Shown here piece after piece: positions 10,021-28,823 of a DNA stretch of 64,000 bases. Source of the DNA: Sinorhizobium fredii NGR234 (GTDB lineage: Bacteria; Pseudomonadota; Alphaproteobacteria; Rhizobiales; Rhizobiaceae); contig NC_012587.1 in NCBI RefSeq assembly GCF_000018545.1, positions 2,046,001 through 2,110,000 on the forward strand. Direction: 5' to 3'. Numbering within the stretch: the first letter of the stretch is position 1; every line of letters starts with the position of its first letter. The translations under genes were made by a program, and so were the position numbers. A model generated the notes under the pieces. The model saw nothing but the letters and a program-made list of their open reading frames with translations. It did not search any database and was not told where the DNA came from.

Positions 10021-10707
10021 TCAATCGCGGTGCCGAGCCGGCGCTAGCGCCATGGTTTGTGCGTAGGCCATCGGCGAGCGGCTGCCCGGCATGTTTTCGT
10101 CCAGGACAAGCGTTTTCACATCATCTGAGCGGACGTCGAGAGCAATGACACGTTCAAGCTTGTCAATCTGCCAGACGGCGTAGCCCAGTTCCGGAACATA
10201 TCCACAATCGCACCCGCAATCACCGCCAAGGATTTCCCTTGGCTCTGCGGGCAGATACATGATTTGCGGCTTCGGCAACTTGTAGCAATGGCCTTCATAG
10301 GCATAGCCGTAAATTACGCCAATGCTCTTGATATATTTGCTGTCGTCTCCACGAAAATTGCGCGATGGAATATTTATCTCTACCGTGAGCTTTAAGACTT
10401 CAGCTTGCGTCTCATCAACCAAAGCCAATACGATCTGCTGCTGAAACAGGTCAATCAACTTCTTCTGGGCAACACGTCTGATGATGCCAGAGATCAGCTT
10501 CTTGTCTTCGGCTTTAATTTCACGACCCCTCAGTTCCTCTTCGAGACTGACGTCGAGTTCCCCGATTTCCTCGGGCGTGAATATCGATAGAGTGACAGCG
10601 GGGCGGCCATAAAGACGCACCTCGCTTGGATTGTAAGCGTCATAGTGTGGAGCCTCGAGGCCCTTCGCCTGGTTCCCCACGCCGGGATGGTTGCAACAAT
10701 CACTCAT
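10021..10707 (-). CDS. Hypothetical CxCxC protein, last gene of the YcaO/TfuA operon
   Basis: The 228-residue protein resembles no family I recognise. It is soluble, with no signal peptide. Cysteines fall at 4, 5, 141, 164, 166 and 168, giving an N-terminal CCNHPG and a GGDCGCDCGY cluster. The middle (residues 45 to 125) is charged and helical, then beta-rich. It follows the peptidase gene by 21 bases and has its own strong ribosome site (AAGGAGAGGAAC). Position and the clustered Cys and Gly make it the best candidate substrate, or metal-binding partner, of the neighbouring YcaO/TfuA enzymes. This is inference only. It could instead be a structural or immunity protein. Confidence 0.7.
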   Translation of the reverse strand: MSDCCNHPGVGNQAKGLEAPHYDAYNPSEVRLYGRPAVTLSIFTPEEIGELDVSLEEELRGREIKAEDKKLISGIIRRVAQKKLIDLFQQQIVLALVDETQAEVLKLTVEINIPSRNFRGDDSKYIKSIGVIYGYAYEGHCYKLPKPQIMYLPAEPREILGGDCGCDCGYVPELGYAVWQIDKLERVIALDVRSDDVKTLVLDENMPGSRSPMAYAQTMALAPARHRD

Positions 10708-10728
10708 GTTCCTCTCCTTTTCCTGGCT

Positions 10729-11913
10729 TCACCTTCGACCGATAATCTCACGCCATGCGAAATTTGCTTCCAGCACCTCCGCAGCCCCGCCTTGGGCGGC
10801 GGCGATGACCGCGGTTGCGGCCTGATCCAATCGCATCGTTGTCGGATCGAGCGTCCGCAACGAAGCCCCAAGCGCCTGTCCGACCGTGTCGCGGGCGGAC
10901 GCCAACGCCAGTTCGAAAATCAGCGGCTTCATCTGAAAGGCCTCGGCTGTCGCGGCGCGGAACTCGTCGAAGTCACGCTGGCTCAACCCGCGCAGGTCAA
11001 TGTCGAGAAGCCGACTATCGGCACAATCCCGCGCGACCAGTTCGCGATGATAAAGCTCGACAATGGTATCGAAGATGGCGCCGACAAAGGGGAGCGCACG
11101 GTCGTGCACCTCGCCGGTCACGTCCGACATGCGGCGGAAGTTGGTCGCGAGCCGCACCTGGGCTTCGGGGCTCGTTTCGGCAAAGCGATTGAGCTCGTTA
11201 TAGAGCAGCAGATTGCCCCGCGTCCGGCGCAGCAATCGGTCGATGGCCGAGCCGAAATGCAGGAACGAGATCAACGACACGGCGTCCGAAAACGCCTCCG
11301 AAAACGGAAAGAAGTCTGCTGCGCGCGAAACTATCGCCGGCACGCCGGTTTCGGACAGGAGGATCAGATGTCCGACCTCGTGGGCAATCGTATCGAAATT
11401 CAGCGCATAGGGACGCAGAATCCCGTCGGTATCCGAACACCCCAGTTCCAGGAAGCCGTAGCCCGCCTGCGCATTGTCCCAGTTCACAAAGGCCACGATT
11501 TCGAGGCGAGGAAAAGTCTGATCGAAAAACCATCGAACCGGCCGGCCGAGATAGCTCTGCCATATGTCGAGAACGAAGTGCACGCAGGCATAGGCGTGCA
11601 CGGAGAGGAATTCCCGTGACGTCGGCGATACATTGTCGAAGTGGCGGTCCGGACCCGGCCCTGCCGGGGATCGCCTCGCCCCATCGAAGGGCGGCAGCCT
11701 ATCAAGGCCATAGGGCTGCTTGTCCGAGAGCGGATCGACCACATACATCAACGCGTCGCTTGGCCCCGGACCGATCTCGTCCCGCAAGATCGGCAGCCAG
11801 ACACGATCCGGCTGCTCGTATCCCGGAATGAAAGGGGGTTGGGGGAATATCCAGAAGCGCGTGCCTAGGCGCGCATCACCAGACTCTAGGGCCTCATTCC
11901 GAAGCAAACGCAT
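10729..11913 (-). CDS. Gluzincin-like metallopeptidase (HEVGH) in the YcaO/TfuA operon
   Basis: This 394-residue protein contains FDTIAHEVGHLIL (His178, Glu179, His182) and, 24 residues on, FPFSEAFSDAVSLISF. The HEXXH plus downstream E-A-x-S-D pattern is that of thermolysin-like (gluzincin) zinc peptidases. There is no signal peptide or propeptide, so it acts in the cytoplasm if active. The start at 11913 follows GAGGGGG by 10 bases; a TTG at 11949, abutting the tfuA stop, is an alternative. Beside YcaO and TfuA genes it could remove a leader from a modified peptide. Overall similarity to characterised peptidases is low outside the motif. Confidence 0.7.
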   Translation of the reverse strand: MRLLRNEALESGDARLGTRFWIFPQPPFIPGYEQPDRVWLPILRDEIGPGPSDALMYVVDPLSDKQPYGLDRLPPFDGARRSPAGPGPDRHFDNVSPTSREFLSVHAYACVHFVLDIWQSYLGRPVRWFFDQTFPRLEIVAFVNWDNAQAGYGFLELGCSDTDGILRPYALNFDTIAHEVGHLILLSETGVPAIVSRAADFFPFSEAFSDAVSLISFLHFGSAIDRLLRRTRGNLLLYNELNRFAETSPEAQVRLATNFRRMSDVTGEVHDRALPFVGAIFDTIVELYHRELVARDCADSRLLDIDLRGLSQRDFDEFRAATAEAFQMKPLIFELALASARDTVGQALGASLRTLDPTTMRLDQAATAVIAAAQGGAAEVLEANFAWREIIGRR

Positions 11914-11949
11914 CGCACAATTGCCCCCTCGGTCGGTGAAATCCGGCAA

Positions 11950-12756
11950 TCAGGGATTGAATTTATAAGTGTTCACTAATTTTGAGTCAATGCCGCCGGC
12001 TTCCAGGTCCCGCATGAAGGTGTTCGTCGCCATCCAAGAATCGCCGCCGCCTGCCGTCCGTGCCCGTCGCACAAGGCTCGGCGCGGCGCCAAGCGCCAGG
12101 AGAGCGTCCTGTCTTTTTTGGCTTACCATCGTCTGCCGCAGTTCTTGGACGCGGCCGTCCGGCCATCCCGCCGCACCCACTATAGTCGCGAGCGTGCGCT
12201 CGCGAAAGTTCATATTTCGCGCCATTGTTGTGAGCAGCGCACGTTCGGCAGGCGTAATGATCTTGCTGCGCATCAGAACGGAAAAGGTCCGCTGCAGATC
12301 GACGAGCGAGTCAGTTAGTTGCATAAAGCCGAGCTCCGCCGGCCCCGAATGCACGGCCACCGCATCGTCCGGTGTCAGTGCGGGAGGCGACCCGCAAACG
12401 TCTCTTGGCGACGAAAGAGCCCATCGCCGATACCATCGGTAGATCAGCCCGACGCCGATCATTCCGAAGTCGCTGAGTTCGGCCGCCCGCAGCGCCCCCA
12501 TGCTGGCGGCTCCGACCATGAGAATTCCCTGCGCCATCGCCCAGAGGATCTCCTTGTGCCTGACGGCCGGCCGGTCTTCGAACTGGCCGTCGATCAGGAT
12601 CATGGCACGCGGGCGGAAAGCATGGGCGGCCAACAGAATGTCACCCTGCGCGGCGGGTTGCAGATAGATGGCGTCGAGCACCGCCTCGGCCTCGGCAATC
12701 CGAAGCGTCGGACCGAGAAACACCAGGATCGGACCCTCTTCGCTCGCATCCGCCAT
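11950..12756 (-). CDS. tfuA: TfuA-like protein
   Basis: This 268-residue protein has the TfuA core: ILVFLGPTL at the N-terminus, MILIDGQFE, RHKEILWAMAQGILMVGAAS then MGALRAAELSDFGMIGVG, and a DDAVAVHSGPAELGF segment. TfuA proteins partner YcaO enzymes. In thioviridamide-type pathways and in archaeal methyl-CoM reductase they are linked to backbone thioamidation, supplying sulfur. The first TfuA came from trifolitoxin-producing Rhizobium. The start at 12756 lies 4 bases after the ycaO stop with GGTGAG just upstream; an ATG at 12774 would overlap ycaO. Tight coupling supports a shared complex. Confidence 0.9.
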   Translation of the reverse strand: MADASEEGPILVFLGPTLRIAEAEAVLDAIYLQPAAQGDILLAAHAFRPRAMILIDGQFEDRPAVRHKEILWAMAQGILMVGAASMGALRAAELSDFGMIGVGLIYRWYRRWALSSPRDVCGSPPALTPDDAVAVHSGPAELGFMQLTDSLVDLQRTFSVLMRSKIITPAERALLTTMARNMNFRERTLATIVGAAGWPDGRVQELRQTMVSQKRQDALLALGAAPSLVRRARTAGGGDSWMATNTFMRDLEAGGIDSKLVNTYKFNP

Positions 12757-12760
12757 CTGC

Positions 12761-13972
12761 TCACCGTACAACATTGAATGGGTATGCGCGGGCAAGGACC
12801 GTCCTCACGCAGCGGACGCCCGTTTCGCGATCATGCCCCACCGGGACGGCGACGACAGGACCGAGGCCGGCGGCGACGATGCCGTTCAGCAGGGAGCCGG
12901 AATCGACGAACGCAGGCAAAGCGGCTGGCGCGATCGGTCTTGCGGAACCTTCCGCGACAATAAGCTCGCGGGCTCTCGCAACGACCACCTCGGTGCTTCT
13001 CTTGTAGTGTGCTCTCGTCTGGTCATCGCGAGCACCGGAAATCGCTCCTGCCCTGGCCGCCAGCGCCTCGAGCATGGCGCTTGCGGCCGCAGCTTCGACG
13101 CTCGGACCGGCGGCATAGCCTTCAGTCGGCAGGGCAAGGATCGGTTCGCCGGGACCCGTCTCGATCGTCTGGCACCAGATGACCGGAATGCCGGCCGGCG
13201 AAGGGGCATGCCACAGCGCGAAGGATATCCCGCAGGCTTCCGCGATAGCGCGGATATGATCCACCCGTTGGCCGAGCCCCGTCACGGCAATGCGCATCCG
13301 GTCGAAGAATCCGTGCGTCGCGAAGGCGCGGGCAATGGCATCGCGCTCGACGCATTCGAACAGGCCGTGCAGATAGGCGCCGCGGGCCTCCATATGGCAG
13401 GCAAGCCCCGTTGTCGTGCGTGCAAACCAGCCATCGTGGACCGGCGGCGGATCCGTGTAGCGAGTGTGGACCAGCTCTACGGGAACCGGCAGCGCATGAC
13501 CTGTGGCGACATCGAGACCGGCGATCCAAGGCAAGATCTTCGTCCGCCAGTTTCCCGATCTGGCCACGACTAGATTGTCAAAGAGGCCGTCGGCAATTTC
13601 GAGCTCCTCGGCGGTCGCCAGGAAGACGCGCTCGGCCGGAATAGCTTCGGCATAATAGCGCTCCAGTGATTCCATGATTGCGCCCATCGACGCTTCCGCC
13701 GTCGTGAGGCCCCGCCCCAGGGACGTCACCTCTGACAATGCCGCCGGACGAACGGCTTGCACCACGGGGAGTCCGAGTCGATCCAGCCCCGTCAGGTCGC
13801 CGATCCGCGTTATTCGCGCTCTTCGGCAGAGTGGCAAAAGCGCCTGGAAGCGACGCTTGGTCTCCTCGGGGTTGGAGGTTATGGAAAGAAAGGCGCGTAG
13901 GTCTGAAAAGATCGCCGTATGAAAATCGGCCAGCCCTTCATTCAGGCGACTGCGATCAGCACCTGACGACAA
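12761..13972 (-). CDS. YcaO-family ATP-dependent peptide-modifying enzyme
   Basis: The 403-residue protein carries both YcaO nucleotide-binding signatures. One is SLGRGLTTAEASMGAIMESL followed by ER (residues about 84 to 105, the SxGxG then ExxER pattern). The other is HGLFECVERDAIARAF (about 202 to 217, ExxERD). The C-terminus ends YPFNVVR with no PxPxP tail, unlike azoline-forming cyclodehydratases and like TfuA-partnered thioamide YcaOs. YcaO enzymes phosphorylate a backbone amide oxygen; with TfuA the expected product is a thioamide. The start chosen is TTG 13972, which has AGGAG 7 bases upstream and overlaps the preceding stop, implying translational coupling. No ATG or GTG fits nearby. 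Confidence 0.88.
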   Translation of the reverse strand: MSSGADRSRLNEGLADFHTAIFSDLRAFLSITSNPEETKRRFQALLPLCRRARITRIGDLTGLDRLGLPVVQAVRPAALSEVTSLGRGLTTAEASMGAIMESLERYYAEAIPAERVFLATAEELEIADGLFDNLVVARSGNWRTKILPWIAGLDVATGHALPVPVELVHTRYTDPPPVHDGWFARTTTGLACHMEARGAYLHGLFECVERDAIARAFATHGFFDRMRIAVTGLGQRVDHIRAIAEACGISFALWHAPSPAGIPVIWCQTIETGPGEPILALPTEGYAAGPSVEAAAASAMLEALAARAGAISGARDDQTRAHYKRSTEVVVARARELIVAEGSARPIAPAALPAFVDSGSLLNGIVAAGLGPVVAVPVGHDRETGVRCVRTVLARAYPFNVVR

Positions 13973-16900
13973 CGCCGAACTCCTGAACCGACTGTCGGGC
14001 GCGCTTGGCAAGGGCCATCGCTCCCTGGCCTTCTGCAATATCGATGGCCGATCGCAGATCTTCAGCGAGCACATCCCGATGCGCCCCCGCTTGGGCGTTG
14101 AGAACGGCTCGACACCGGTGCAGTTCCGCCAGCCAATAGGCATGGCCGGTTTCCTCGGCCTTTTGGATAGCCTCGTTCACAATGTCGATCGCCTCGCCCG
14201 TCTTGCACGCCCGTCCAAGCAGGGTGGCGTGCATGTAGAGGTAGATCGGCAGATCCGCGACCGCGCCCAATTTTCTGAGAAGCGAAAGGCCCTCCCTAAA
14301 AGCGCTGTGCCCATCGTCAAGACTGCCCTTATGTGCCTCGGCCCAGCCCCCGAAGAGCAGCGACAGGCCGGACAGGGACTGCATCTCGTGCTTCGTGGCA
14401 AAATGCGCCATCCGTTCGGTAACTTCAGTGAGGCGCTCGAAGTCGTCCCGATAAAACGCCGATACGGCTTCGGTATCGAGCGAATGCGCCTTGCTCGGCG
14501 CATGCGCTATGCGGTCGACGAAAGCGATCATCTTGGACAGCGCCGTGTCCGAGGCCTTCGTTTGCCCCGTCAGCCACAGGGAAAGGGCGAACTGGCCGAG
14601 CGCGCACACCTTCGCGTCATGCCCGCCGAATTCCATCCGGCTTCTCCTTGCCGTTTGCTCGTCATAGAGCGCCAAGCCGGCCTTGATCGCCTCCTGGGTC
14701 TCCCGATGCCGGCCGAGATTGAAATCGATGGCCCAGATACAATGGTTCACCTGCAGTTGGATCTCCGGATCGTCGGCCCTCGCCAACATGGCCTGGACCT
14801 CCAGGGCCCGGTCGTGCATGACGCGGAAATTCGAACCGGTAAACCACCAGCCCCAATAGATCGGGAACCACTTCGACTGCTCGTCCATCGGCTGCCGTCG
14901 GGCGATTTCAACCCCGTCTTCATAGAGCTTGCGCGCGGGGGGCGAATTCAGCCCCACTAGGCCAGTCAGGATCGGCCCGAGCGCCGTCAGCGCAGCAAGC
15001 TGCAACGTCTCGACGGGGCGCCCCTCGCCCAATTGGCTGCAAAGTCTCAGCGCATGTTCCAGATACTGGCGCGCCTCGATCATCGCCGAGCGGCTCGAAC
15101 TCTCCTTCCCGGCGGCGATCAGCAGTTCGACTGCATTCTCGAGGAGGCCAGCCCGCTCCGCGTGTTCAGCCAGTGCGCCGGTGTCGATCCAGGCGGCCAT
15201 GCCGCGGTTCTGGCCGACGGCGCCAAATAGCCGCCGGTGCAACACCTGCCGCTGTTTGCGCAGCAGCGCGTTGTAGATCGTCTCCTGGATCAGCACGTGG
15301 CGAAAACCGTAGGCAATGCGCCCGGGTGCCCGAACCCGCGTCAGGAACCCGGTCTCGCACAGCGTATCGGCCGCGCTGGCGATTGCCTTCTTGCTGAAGT
15401 CGGGCAGCAGCACACGCAGCAGAGGCAAGGTCACCTGCGTACCGGCCGCCGCTGCCGCTCGCGCCACTTCTCTGGCCGGACCCAGATGCTGCAGCCGCGC
15501 GTCCAGTATGGATTCGAACGCCGACAGATGGGCCGGCTTCATGTTCTCCGACAGGCTCGCCTCATCCGCTTCGGCATCTTGGGAGGCCCATTGGCAGATT
15601 TCCTCGATGAACAGAGGAACGCCGCCGGATATGCGTTCCGCCACTTCGAAGAGTTCCGGCAGCCTCGCCAGCCGATGCTCCGGCCATTTCGCCCGGATCG
15701 CCCGCCGCGTTTCGTCACTGTCCAGAGGACGCAACGACAGCCGCAGCGGGTTCGCCGCGTCCAGCCATACGGCGGGTGAACCGCGCCGCGACGTCAAGAC
15801 GAGAAAGATCGGGAACTGATCAATGAGCCGGGCCGCCTCGCCGAGCAGGTCGCGCGAGGTCGGATCTATCCAATGGATGTCCTCGACCGCTATGACCACG
15901 GGGCCGCCTCGGCAGACCGCTTCCAGCGTCCGCAAGAGCGCCCGGTGCGCTTTCTCGCGGATCGCCTTGGGATTATCATTGGCGAGGCTCTGGTTTTGTC
16001 CTTCCGCGCCAAGCAGATAGGCGAAGACATCGATCGCCTCCTTGTCCTCGATGCCGTTGCGCCCGAACAATGTCGCCACGTCGGAGGCCGTGACGCCCAT
16101 CTGCCCATGTCTCGTCGTCGACACGGGAAAGCTGTGCAGCAGCGGATGCAGCGTCGAGCGCAAGCCGCCGGGGAGGCACTGGAAGAAAAACAGCTTCGAG
16201 CGCCGATCCCGCGTCTTCCTGCGGATCTCCCGCAGAAGGCGGGACTTGCCGATGCCGGCATCCCCCTCGATGATGAGACTTGCGCCCCGCCCGGCAAGGA
16301 CGCCATCCCAGGTACGCACGATCGTATTCAGCTCGCTCTCGCGGTTGATGAAGGGACCGCCCAGCCGGCCATATGCATAGAAGCGGTCAACCTCCATCTT
16401 GTGTCCAAGCGCCCGCCACACTTTCTCGGGTGCCGAGAAGCCCTTGAGCGTCTTGCTGCCCTGGAATACGAAGGCATGCGATCGCCCGGCCAGGTTTCGC
16501 GTCTCCTCGGAAACCAGGACGCCGTTCGGCTCGGCGATCACTTGTAGGCGGGCCGCCATGGCGAGTGCCGCGCCGGTGACGGGCTCCTGAAGCCAGCTCT
16601 CCCGTTCCATATCGCGGATGAGGGCCGCGGACGTGGCGATCCCGACGCGGACGCGGAGGTCATCCCGTCCGCCCTCTTGGCCGACGCTCTTGCAGCCGTC
16701 AACGATTGCCAGGCCGGCGCGGATCGCCAGCGAAGCAGCATCCTTGGCGTCGAGATCGATCGGAAACAGTGCCACGCCGCCGTCGCCGGCCTCGTGCTGC
16801 ATCACGCCGGAGTGCGACGCGATCGACTGCCTGCTCGACTCCTGAAAGGCGGACATCAGGTCCTGATAATCCTCGATGTCCATGACATGCAAAAGATCGG

Positions 16901-17030
16901 TCGACCCGACGAGATCGTAGCAGAGCGCCGTGACGATGCGGCGCTCGCTGCCAGGCGCGGCGGGACCGCCGGCACGGGTAGTGCGGCTGGCTGCTCTTCG
17001 TGGTGTATTGGTTCGGCTTTCGCGCAGCAT
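13956..17030 (-). CDS. Cyclase-like/AAA ATPase/TPR regulator leading the YcaO/TfuA operon
   Basis: The 1024-residue protein has three parts. Residues about 30 to 200 are a class III nucleotide-cyclase fold. Both metal aspartates are present (Asp39 in CYDLVGST, Asp83 in AGDGG) and so is Arg161 (AMAARLQ), but the transition-state Asn position is Ala157, so catalysis is doubtful. Residues about 225 to 560 are an AAA/STAND ATPase with P-loop GDAGIGKS (256-263) and Walker B VVIAVEDIHW. The rest is alpha-helical TPR-like repeat. No terminal DNA-binding HTH was seen. Such proteins usually sense signals and switch by ATP binding. It is the first gene of the operon and overlaps ycaO, so it probably controls or senses the modified product. 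Confidence 0.8.
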   Translation of the reverse strand: MLRESRTNTPRRAASRTTRAGGPAAPGSERRIVTALCYDLVGSTDLLHVMDIEDYQDLMSAFQESSRQSIASHSGVMQHEAGDGGVALFPIDLDAKDAASLAIRAGLAIVDGCKSVGQEGGRDDLRVRVGIATSAALIRDMERESWLQEPVTGAALAMAARLQVIAEPNGVLVSEETRNLAGRSHAFVFQGSKTLKGFSAPEKVWRALGHKMEVDRFYAYGRLGGPFINRESELNTIVRTWDGVLAGRGASLIIEGDAGIGKSRLLREIRRKTRDRRSKLFFFQCLPGGLRSTLHPLLHSFPVSTTRHGQMGVTASDVATLFGRNGIEDKEAIDVFAYLLGAEGQNQSLANDNPKAIREKAHRALLRTLEAVCRGGPVVIAVEDIHWIDPTSRDLLGEAARLIDQFPIFLVLTSRRGSPAVWLDAANPLRLSLRPLDSDETRRAIRAKWPEHRLARLPELFEVAERISGGVPLFIEEICQWASQDAEADEASLSENMKPAHLSAFESILDARLQHLGPAREVARAAAAAGTQVTLPLLRVLLPDFSKKAIASAADTLCETGFLTRVRAPGRIAYGFRHVLIQETIYNALLRKQRQVLHRRLFGAVGQNRGMAAWIDTGALAEHAERAGLLENAVELLIAAGKESSSRSAMIEARQYLEHALRLCSQLGEGRPVETLQLAALTALGPILTGLVGLNSPPARKLYEDGVEIARRQPMDEQSKWFPIYWGWWFTGSNFRVMHDRALEVQAMLARADDPEIQLQVNHCIWAIDFNLGRHRETQEAIKAGLALYDEQTARRSRMEFGGHDAKVCALGQFALSLWLTGQTKASDTALSKMIAFVDRIAHAPSKAHSLDTEAVSAFYRDDFERLTEVTERMAHFATKHEMQSLSGLSLLFGGWAEAHKGSLDDGHSAFREGLSLLRKLGAVADLPIYLYMHATLLGRACKTGEAIDIVNEAIQKAEETGHAYWLAELHRCRAVLNAQAGAHRDVLAEDLRSAIDIAEGQGAMALAKRARQSVQEFGVVVRC

Positions 17031-24775: not shown

Positions 24776-24849
24776 GAAGATCAGTCAGAATCTTGTCATG
24801 GTCACAAACGGAATGTGGTGGAGTGTCTCGCATCAGAGATTGTGGCAAC

Positions 24850-24875
24850 AAAAAAGGCCGGGCGAACCCGACCTT
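24850..24875 (-). terminator. Intrinsic terminator on the minus strand
   Basis: On the minus strand, aaggtcggg and cccggcctt form a stem (one G-U pair) with a ttcg tetraloop, followed by TTTTT. This is a strong rho-independent terminator for a transcript from about 24.9 to 25.1 kb. Confidence 0.7.
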
Positions 24876-24914
24876 CCTCGTCCTCTCGACCTGCCAATGC
24901 CAGTACATCCGTGG

Positions 24915-25109
24915 TCAAAGGCAGGGAGACGACATCCGTGTTGAGCGACTATCCAACCGATTGCGGCAGGACTTCGCGACGTGGCGCTTCAGCGCTAAAG
25001 CAACATCGCCGATCAACATCGATGACCCCGATGTAGTGAGCGATTGTGCTCTCCGCAAGGCACGACGCAGCTTTTCTTGATCGGATTCCTTGTCGCTTTG
25101 GCGATTCAT
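24915..25109 (-). CDS. Possible small basic protein (64 aa)
   Basis: The frame from ATG 25109 encodes a 64-residue basic peptide with an amphipathic start ([20 protein letters not shown]) and the segment [16 protein letters not shown]. It ends 40 bases before a strong intrinsic terminator on the same strand, which shows that a short minus-strand transcript does exist here. No clear ribosome site precedes the ATG, and the transcript might be a small RNA instead. I do not recognise the sequence. Confidence 0.4.
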
Positions 25110-28654: not shown

Positions 28655-28710
28655 TGGCCTGCTTCCGTCCCTTTTGTAAGGCTTGGGGTGATTAGCTTGT
28701 TTGAAGACAT

Positions 28711-28734
28711 AAAAAAAGGCCCCATCAGGAGCCT
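28711..28734 (-). terminator. Attenuator terminator ahead of ilvI
   Basis: On the minus strand, aggctcc and ggggcct pair (one G-U) around a tgat loop, followed directly by TTTTTTT. It lies between the leader peptide and the ilvI start, as expected for a transcription attenuator. Confidence 0.8.
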
Positions 28735-28740
28735 CGTTCA

Positions 28741-28788
28741 GCGCATGGGTGGCTACCGCCGGATGGTCACACCATCCTGCCCATGCGC
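28741..28788 (-). promoter_or_regulatory. Nested hairpin of the ilv attenuator
   Basis: The outer stem gcgcatggg / cccatgcgc (9 perfect pairs) encloses an inner stem ggatggt / accatcc (7 perfect pairs, 3-base loop). The structure overlaps the end of the leader peptide and precedes the terminator. It is a candidate pause or anti-terminator module. Confidence 0.7.
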
Positions 28789-28823
28789 CGTCCCACCACA
28801 AGAATAACCGCGAAGTTTTTCAT
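28767..28823 (-). CDS. ilvL: ilvIH leader peptide
   Basis: Reading the minus strand from ATG 28823 gives MKNFAVILVVGRRMGRMV and TGA, 18 residues. Six consecutive codons are Ala-Val-Ile-Leu-Val-Val, the regulatory amino acids of the ilv pathway. The stop lies inside the nested hairpin, 33 bases before the attenuator terminator. Ribosome stalling on scarce Val, Ile or Leu tRNAs would favour read-through into ilvI. The layout parallels classical ilv leaders of enteric bacteria; I infer the mechanism from sequence alone. Confidence 0.8.
   Translation of the reverse strand: MKNFAVILVVGRRMGRMV

Follow-up and report, generated by a model that had tools for sequence, protein, structure and literature searches.

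A conserved YcaO–TfuA operon of Sinorhizobium fredii with a candidate long peptide precursor and a gluzincin peptidase

A five-gene operon around YcaO and TfuA

The window analysed here is a 64,000-nucleotide stretch of the Sinorhizobium fredii NGR234 genome (contig NC_012587.1, positions 2,046,001 to 2,110,000; coordinates below count from its first letter), and its minus strand carries an operon in which a YcaO and a TfuA gene stand with genes for a regulator, a peptidase and a 228-aa protein. We propose, with a probability of about 0.58, that the product of this operon is a thioamidated ribosomal peptide. Its long precursor would have a folded domain as leader, a dedicated gluzincin would excise the core, and a cyclase/STAND protein would regulate the pathway.

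The first gene (13956..17030) encodes the regulator, 1024 aa with a class III cyclase-like domain, a STAND-type AAA ATPase and a TPR-like C terminus. It is followed by YcaO (12761..14143; 460 aa as listed), a predicted backbone-amide-activating enzyme, by TfuA (11950..12795; 281 aa), its predicted sulfur delivery partner, and by a gluzincin peptidase with an M36/M4-type catalytic domain (open reading frame (ORF) 10729-11949, or 10729..11913 and 394 aa from the ATG at 11913). The last gene (10021..10707) encodes the precursor candidate, 228 aa with an LYGR motif, a predicted folded leader domain and a C-terminal tail. YcaO and TfuA overlap by 35 bases, and the gaps between TfuA and the peptidase and between the peptidase and the last gene are 36 and 21 bases, which confirms the five tightly packed minus-strand genes described in an earlier note on this DNA. 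The regulator and YcaO ORFs share 188 bases as listed. However, the listed YcaO start is probably over-extended, as the first alignment column with at least 90% conservation is residue 104; a TTG near 13970 would fit.

The gene order was identical at all eight Sinorhizobium loci (L041–L048) and at three other loci (L034, L049 and L050), the kind of neighbourhood comparison among rhizobia that the earlier note had proposed. The arrangement is therefore not a product of chance: the five-gene operon is real, and its order is kept across Sinorhizobium and beyond. Among 33 genomes of the genus, YcaO has a close copy in 28 and a divergent copy in G001 and G024, and the peptidase is full length in 29 and interrupted by a contig end in G009. 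The precursor has matches in 30 genomes; the one in G010 is a remnant of 62 codons that contains a stop, and full precursor and full peptidase co-occur in exactly the same 29 genomes. The only peptidase matches in G007, G010 and G026 are weak (E ~1e-13) and lie in other genes of 480–720 codons. The G010 precursor remnant lies between an EF-hand and a helicase gene, which also flank the operon in relatives and in the window itself, and the 20 kb read there yielded no further operon gene. Loss of the whole operon at once would explain this, and the flanking genes mark its limits. A LysE gene was excluded from the operon because it was not found in the flank of four of the eight genus loci.

The peptidase

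The peptidase has an HExxH motif, a distal Glu and a predicted thermolysin-like fold, the features of a gluzincin. It models as an M36/M4-type catalytic domain with no propeptide, the protein starting at the catalytic domain, in line with the leaderless gluzincin of the earlier note, and it is probably cytosolic. Neither the peptidase nor the last gene of the operon matched any Pfam family up to E 1, or any NCBIfam family beyond one chance-level match (E 0.67). When 39 members of the peptidase family were compared with Pfam, PF01447 (M4) was matched by five, PF02128 (M36) by one and PF13583 by 19, with best E values of 0.01–0.03; a separate scan showed one M36 match at 14 bits versus 23. Identity to fungalysin M36 and thermolysin M4 peptidases is 10–16%, and the window peptidase differs from these in having no propeptide; Pfam matches across its family are only weak (best E 0.01). 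It is 92–93% identical to entries from Sinorhizobium americanum and Sinorhizobium sp. BJ1. A 711-aa protein encoded about 25 kb from the operon's peptidase in G003 (L164:963-3095) shares the HExxH region of the peptidase; similar matches of 711–719 codons occur in more than 10 genus genomes, and no NCBIfam family was matched.

A probable precursor family with C-terminal tandem repeats

A peptidase search in 385 sampled genomes of the class matched 12, including the genome of the window, and four of these matches were weak (E 2e-16 to 6e-5). Scanning 84,980 species genomes returned 328 stretches that encode a peptidase relative. We compared 100 loci (L034–L133), made up of the best 80 of the 328 stretches and 20 chosen loci; 97 contain the peptidase and three are YcaO comparisons. 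Near relatives are included, and proportions among these loci are not unbiased.

The earlier note found no obvious short precursor and labelled the fifth gene a CxCxC protein. However, this gene is itself the precursor candidate, with a homologue at 88 of the 92 peptidase loci that have enough downstream DNA (L040, L062, L064, L102 and L126 have too little). Because L035 and L104 represent a single place that is present in both of two collections, the counts 92, 88, 74 and 69 given in this section correspond to 91, 87, 73 and 68 distinct places, and the codon-difference sums count this place twice. The homologue is the next recognised gene after the peptidase, except at L129, where it follows TfuA, and L068, where it lies 2.5 kb away. 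All 88 match the family profile at E < 1e-3, with at least 32 of them among the sequences used to build it. Four loci (L107, L112, L118 and L130, from a cyanobacterium, two Actinoplanes and Fibrisoma) have the peptidase with no recognisable precursor, YcaO or TfuA neighbour. Among 8000 candidates scored, 498 proteins matched the precursor profile at E 1e-5. Where the 120 listed homologues are named, they are mostly hypothetical proteins, with two 'pentapeptide repeat-containing protein' and one 'TrkA C-terminal'. The CxCxC label does not hold family-wide: CGCDCG is present in 75 of 114 homologues, and a PG.RSP motif is present in 110.

In distant lineages, the protein after the peptidase has an LFGR/LYGR-like N-terminal motif, a middle domain and a C-terminal tandem repeat. 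Such repeats, with units of 4–7 residues (for example SGARV, SRAVMA, VGRADL and GRSGGAM), are present in 74 of the 88 precursors, 69 of which were identified by script score and five by eye (L061, L068, L116, L123 and L129, with L061 and L123 imperfect). Aestuariispira insulae (L104) and Pelagibius litoralis (L056) are among the species with a repeat precursor. The precursors without a repeat are L038 and those of 11 window-type loci (L034 and L041–L050), and two more (L060 and L098) are truncated. Of the 86 sequences tested, which include the window protein and L130, the latter not a precursor, 70 scored above the best of 200 shuffles. In 69 of these the array ends 0–12 residues from the C terminus, and the periods are 5, 6, 7 and, once, 4; the remaining one, L123, owed its score to a different stretch. 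When one repeat criterion was applied to called genes of the same loci, 60 of 76 precursor ORFs were positive, compared with 5 of 1200 other genes; these five are three precursors that the search pattern had missed, one masked sequence and one Gly-rich protein.

Codon comparisons between adjacent units of the 69 arrays gave 1160 synonymous, 111 non-synonymous and 693 identical codons. The large excess of synonymous differences indicates that the repeat unit is kept at the protein level while the DNA drifts. A single Arg or Lys is present in the majority unit of 67 of the 69 arrays and in 23 of the 25 different types of unit, and the residue before it is Ala (27 times), Ser (25), Gly (12) or Val (3). 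Because the sample contains relatives, these are not independent counts. The repeat unit changes in sequence from lineage to lineage and the leader domain is kept, as would be expected of a core and its leader. At L129 (L129:10183-11172), where the order is peptidase, YcaO, TfuA, precursor, the precursor has an extra leader stretch and units of MARSSGM.

At 228 aa and non-repetitive in its clade, the window protein is easily missed as a precursor. Its residues 128–211 (counted from Ser2) align over 83 columns to the leader found in repeat precursors (probability 97.6 and E 3.6e-12 in hhalign), whereas control comparisons of the peptidase profile with either precursor profile gave 0.1. Single-sequence searches link it to the proteins of L034 (E 1.9e-23) and L049 (E 3.8e-19). 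In the predicted model (predicted local distance difference test score (pLDDT) 78.6, predicted template-modelling score (pTM) 0.70), most blocks of a beta-rich domain have means of 81–92, with dips to 58 and 74–76, and no clear fold match was found. Confidence drops along the tail (block means of 67, 58 and 48), where a helix at 211–220 is predicted at low confidence. We place the predicted core region at 10024..10104 on the minus strand (precursor residues 202–228; LDENMPGSRSPMAYAQTMALAPARHRD) on the basis of its conservation, the falling pLDDT and its position, which is that of the repeats in relatives. Mean pairwise identity in the window clade is 72% for the tail, 70% for the domain, 52% for the N terminus and 17% for the middle insert. 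Synonymous and amino-acid changes in tail codons relative to the window number 7 and 0 in L042, 9 and 0 in L047, 9 and 1 in L041, 13 and 1 in L046, 10 and 2 in L044, and 12 and 6 in L043.

YcaO and TfuA

The YcaO protein matches PF02624 (E 3e-43), and TfuA matches PF07812 (E 2e-37) and 6xp8_A (E 3e-21). In a 70-row YcaO alignment, E158, E161, E263, E266, R267, E359, R364, R372 and D374 are invariant wherever the residue is aligned. These Glu, Arg and Asp residues belong to the ATP and magnesium site, so the loss of nucleotide-binding residues that the earlier note named as a possible refutation was not seen; the adjacent YcaO–TfuA pair that it recognised stands, with Pfam support and an intact ATP site. 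The window YcaO has Gly at the Ser position of the Sx3Ex2E motif. TfuA is near the peptidase at 71 of the 97 peptidase loci and YcaO at 67. TfuA has been described as a hydrolase that aids sulfide transfer from thiocarboxylated carriers (PMC13063428). The genome has a second YcaO (G000:C3:2271608-2272636; 34% identity), beside which a single-sequence search found no TfuA. Another TfuA, YcaO and cyclase/STAND-like locus, without the peptidase, is present in the genus genome G001 (L053:7484-13452).

A proposed thioamidated peptide

In the proposed pathway, the leader would be the folded domain of the 228-aa protein (about residues 28–200) and the core its C-terminal tail (about residues 202–228). 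YcaO and TfuA would swap a backbone C=O of the tail for C=S. The bond that precedes a basic residue may be the site, as suggested by the single Arg or Lys of the repeat units in relatives, which follows Ala, Ser, Gly or Val, and by the Pro–Arg thioamide of thiovarsolin. The M36/M4-like peptidase would free the peptide from the leader; where relatives have tandem units, it would split the array into several peptides. The cyclase/STAND protein would switch the pathway. The 228-aa protein is very probably the precursor and the peptidase likely processes it; thioamidation of the window tail is somewhat favoured.

Several observations weigh against this proposal. The window tail has no repeats and is strongly conserved, unlike many cores of ribosomally synthesized and post-translationally modified peptides (RiPPs). 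No exporter gene was recognised in the operon, as in the earlier note. The best curated models for YcaO and TfuA are TIGR03266 and NF033432, which describe thioamidation of McrA glycine by such a pair, yet the scores are far below cut-off (121 versus 365 and 155 versus 235), so activity of the window pair is assigned by family membership. In addition, seven of eight Mesorhizobium genomes in the comparison (G483, G484, G485, G490, G491, G495 and G502, completeness not given) yielded no TfuA or YcaO genome-wide, and six of these seven have a repeat precursor beside the peptidase; in the seventh (L126, G502) the contig ends first. As precursor and peptidase persist without YcaO and TfuA, the tail would have a role that does not require thioamidation, and thioamidation is not obligatory for the peptidase–precursor system.

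The eighth Mesorhizobium genome (G496) has one YcaO and one TfuA elsewhere, and 12 Rhizobium genomes of the YcaO-less group have one or two TfuA genes elsewhere. On a peptidase tree of 96 rows, built by a quick method without L040 (cut) and L035 (a duplicate of L104), the YcaO/TfuA label has to change three times: at L057, in a non-proteobacterial group and in a Rhizobium/Mesorhizobium group of 20. The L057 contig begins inside the peptidase, so genes upstream are out of view. The group of 20 is nested among YcaO-bearing lineages, and loss of YcaO is therefore simpler than late gain. Either peptidase and precursor act without thioamidation in the YcaO-less lineages, or these have lost the modification and make a different product; the Mesorhizobium version offers a natural control for what thioamidation adds. 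YcaO-less Rhizobium/Mesorhizobium loci also have a small gene of 110–125 aa after the precursor (L066:9995-10369, L072:9979-10308 and L088:9987-10355), with weak or no Pfam match, that may be a third component.

The regulator and alternative explanations

The regulator matches PF00211 (E 3.9e-5) and AAA_16 (E 4.5e-17) in Pfam and the 'TOMM kinase/cyclase' model TIGR03903 in NCBIfam (E 1.3e-86), which bears out the 1024-residue STAND-type sensor of the earlier note. It aligns over model positions 264–1266, without the N-terminal kinase part, and scores 292 bits against a cut-off of 706. Both metal-binding Asp residues and the Walker motifs are present. However, Ala replaces the usual Asn of the cyclase motif 'VNxAAR', which makes cyclase activity doubtful. 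A regulator is near the peptidase at 40 of the 97 peptidase loci, weak matches included.

The strongest alternative, in our view unlikely, is a regulated-proteolysis module, in which sensor, peptidase and tailed protein form a signalling or conflict switch, cutting of the tail is the decisive step and YcaO–TfuA only tunes the tail. Consistent with this, a class III cyclase-like ORF was found at 64 of the 70 loci whose flanks are complete (and at 78 of all 95 loci covered), compared with roughly 2–9% expected per 17 kb from the 6 to 37 class III cyclase domains per genome in nine genomes, although thresholds differ between the two counts. The regulator cyclase domain also matches PADLOC PycC (E 3.8e-7), and YcaO and TfuA were not found in the seven Mesorhizobium genomes. 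By contrast, the tree favours loss of YcaO over late gain, short tandem units suit peptide release better than a switch, and PADLOC gave no match at E 0.01 for the peptidase, precursor, YcaO or TfuA.

Less likely still is protein modification, in which YcaO–TfuA would thioamidate the 228-aa protein within its folded domain, in the way that YcaO acts on uL16 or YcaO–TfuA on McrA, with the peptidase in quality control. The high conservation of this domain in the window clade would suit such a role, and structured proteins are among the known YcaO substrates (PMC13063428), but modification of the domain alone leaves the protein-level selection on the repeats of relatives unexplained.

A thiazole/oxazole (TOMM) pathway, in which YcaO would form azolines on the tail, is very improbable, even though the regulator is nearest to the TOMM kinase/cyclase model. 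The partner of YcaO is TfuA, and a scan of five operon and five flanking proteins found no azoline dehydrogenase and no E1/ThiF-like domain, consistent with the earlier note. Moreover, the arrays of L097 and L131, and that of L055 except for its first unit, contain no Cys, Ser or Thr and lie beside YcaO and TfuA. Azoline chemistry could not use such arrays, which argues for backbone thioamidation over azolines.

We give almost no weight to a tail that forms a pentapeptide-repeat beta-helix, as in the names of two of the 120 listed homologues, since unit lengths are 4, 5, 6 and 7, the window clade has no repeats and the weak PF00805 matches in two of ten precursors scanned are both below the gathering score, although three homologues carry precomputed PF00805.

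Relation to known systems

Turning back to the proposed thioamidated peptide, the tandem units of relatives and the dedicated protease have a parallel in the cyanobactins, which have precursors with several core copies and proteases of their own; these differ in being serine proteases and macrocyclases, and the chemistry is another one. The closest known system is thiovarsolin (varA-varY-varT). According to PMC6511847, which also mentions cyanobactin repeats, thiovarsolin has a YcaO–TfuA pair, precursors that range from non-repeating to five repeats and a thioamide between Pro and Arg, and its cluster has no specific protease. Shared with the present loci are the YcaO–TfuA pair, a precursor family that ranges from non-repeating to repeating and short linear units with one Arg; as in thiovarsolin, repeating or single-tail precursor genes adjoin YcaO–TfuA, a likeness by description in which the core is putative. 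The thiovarsolin system differs in its actinobacterial hosts, in its companions varO, varL, varP and varS, whose types of domain were not found in the five operon genes, and in having precursors that were sought as frames of 20–120 aa.

The earlier note could match the operon to no described RiPP class. The gene combination is indeed unmatched, in that no paper recognised as describing it was found in searches of open-licence papers, but repeat precursors beside YcaO–TfuA were already known from thiovarsolin (PMC6511847). A TfuA survey by Malit et al. 2021 (PMC8120280), which used RiPPER, reports more than 500 Rhizobium TfuA clusters, which may include loci of the window type; in the part of its text considered here, neither an M36-like peptidase nor a long repeat precursor is described in any cluster. 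RiPPER seeks frames of 20–120 aa in apparently non-coding regions (PMC6511847) and would miss these precursors, as they are annotated proteins of 150–330 aa.

YcaO–TfuA peptide pathways as such are already known, and what is new, on our best reading, is one that combines a folded-domain leader with a dedicated gluzincin and a regulator of the cyclase/STAND type. More tentatively, and at somewhat less than even odds, the loci may represent a new class of ribosomal peptide system built on three constant parts: a regulator of the class III cyclase type, an M36-like cytosolic peptidase that lacks a propeptide, and a precursor that joins a folded leader to a single or tandem core. YcaO–TfuA thioamidation would then be optional tailoring, lost in one rhizobial lineage. 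Such a class would probably extend over hundreds of genomes, mostly proteobacterial; the length of its precursors (150–330 aa) and their names, as hypothetical or pentapeptide-repeat proteins, would have kept it hidden. Precursor searches among short frames miss this whole family. The family also gives a testable candidate substrate to a large group of orphan proteobacterial YcaO–TfuA clusters and ties these clusters to a dedicated protease.

Elsewhere in the window, Rfam matches to Atu_C8 (28701-28821) and ar35 (24847-24962) correspond to small RNAs of Rhizobiales and Alphaproteobacteria.

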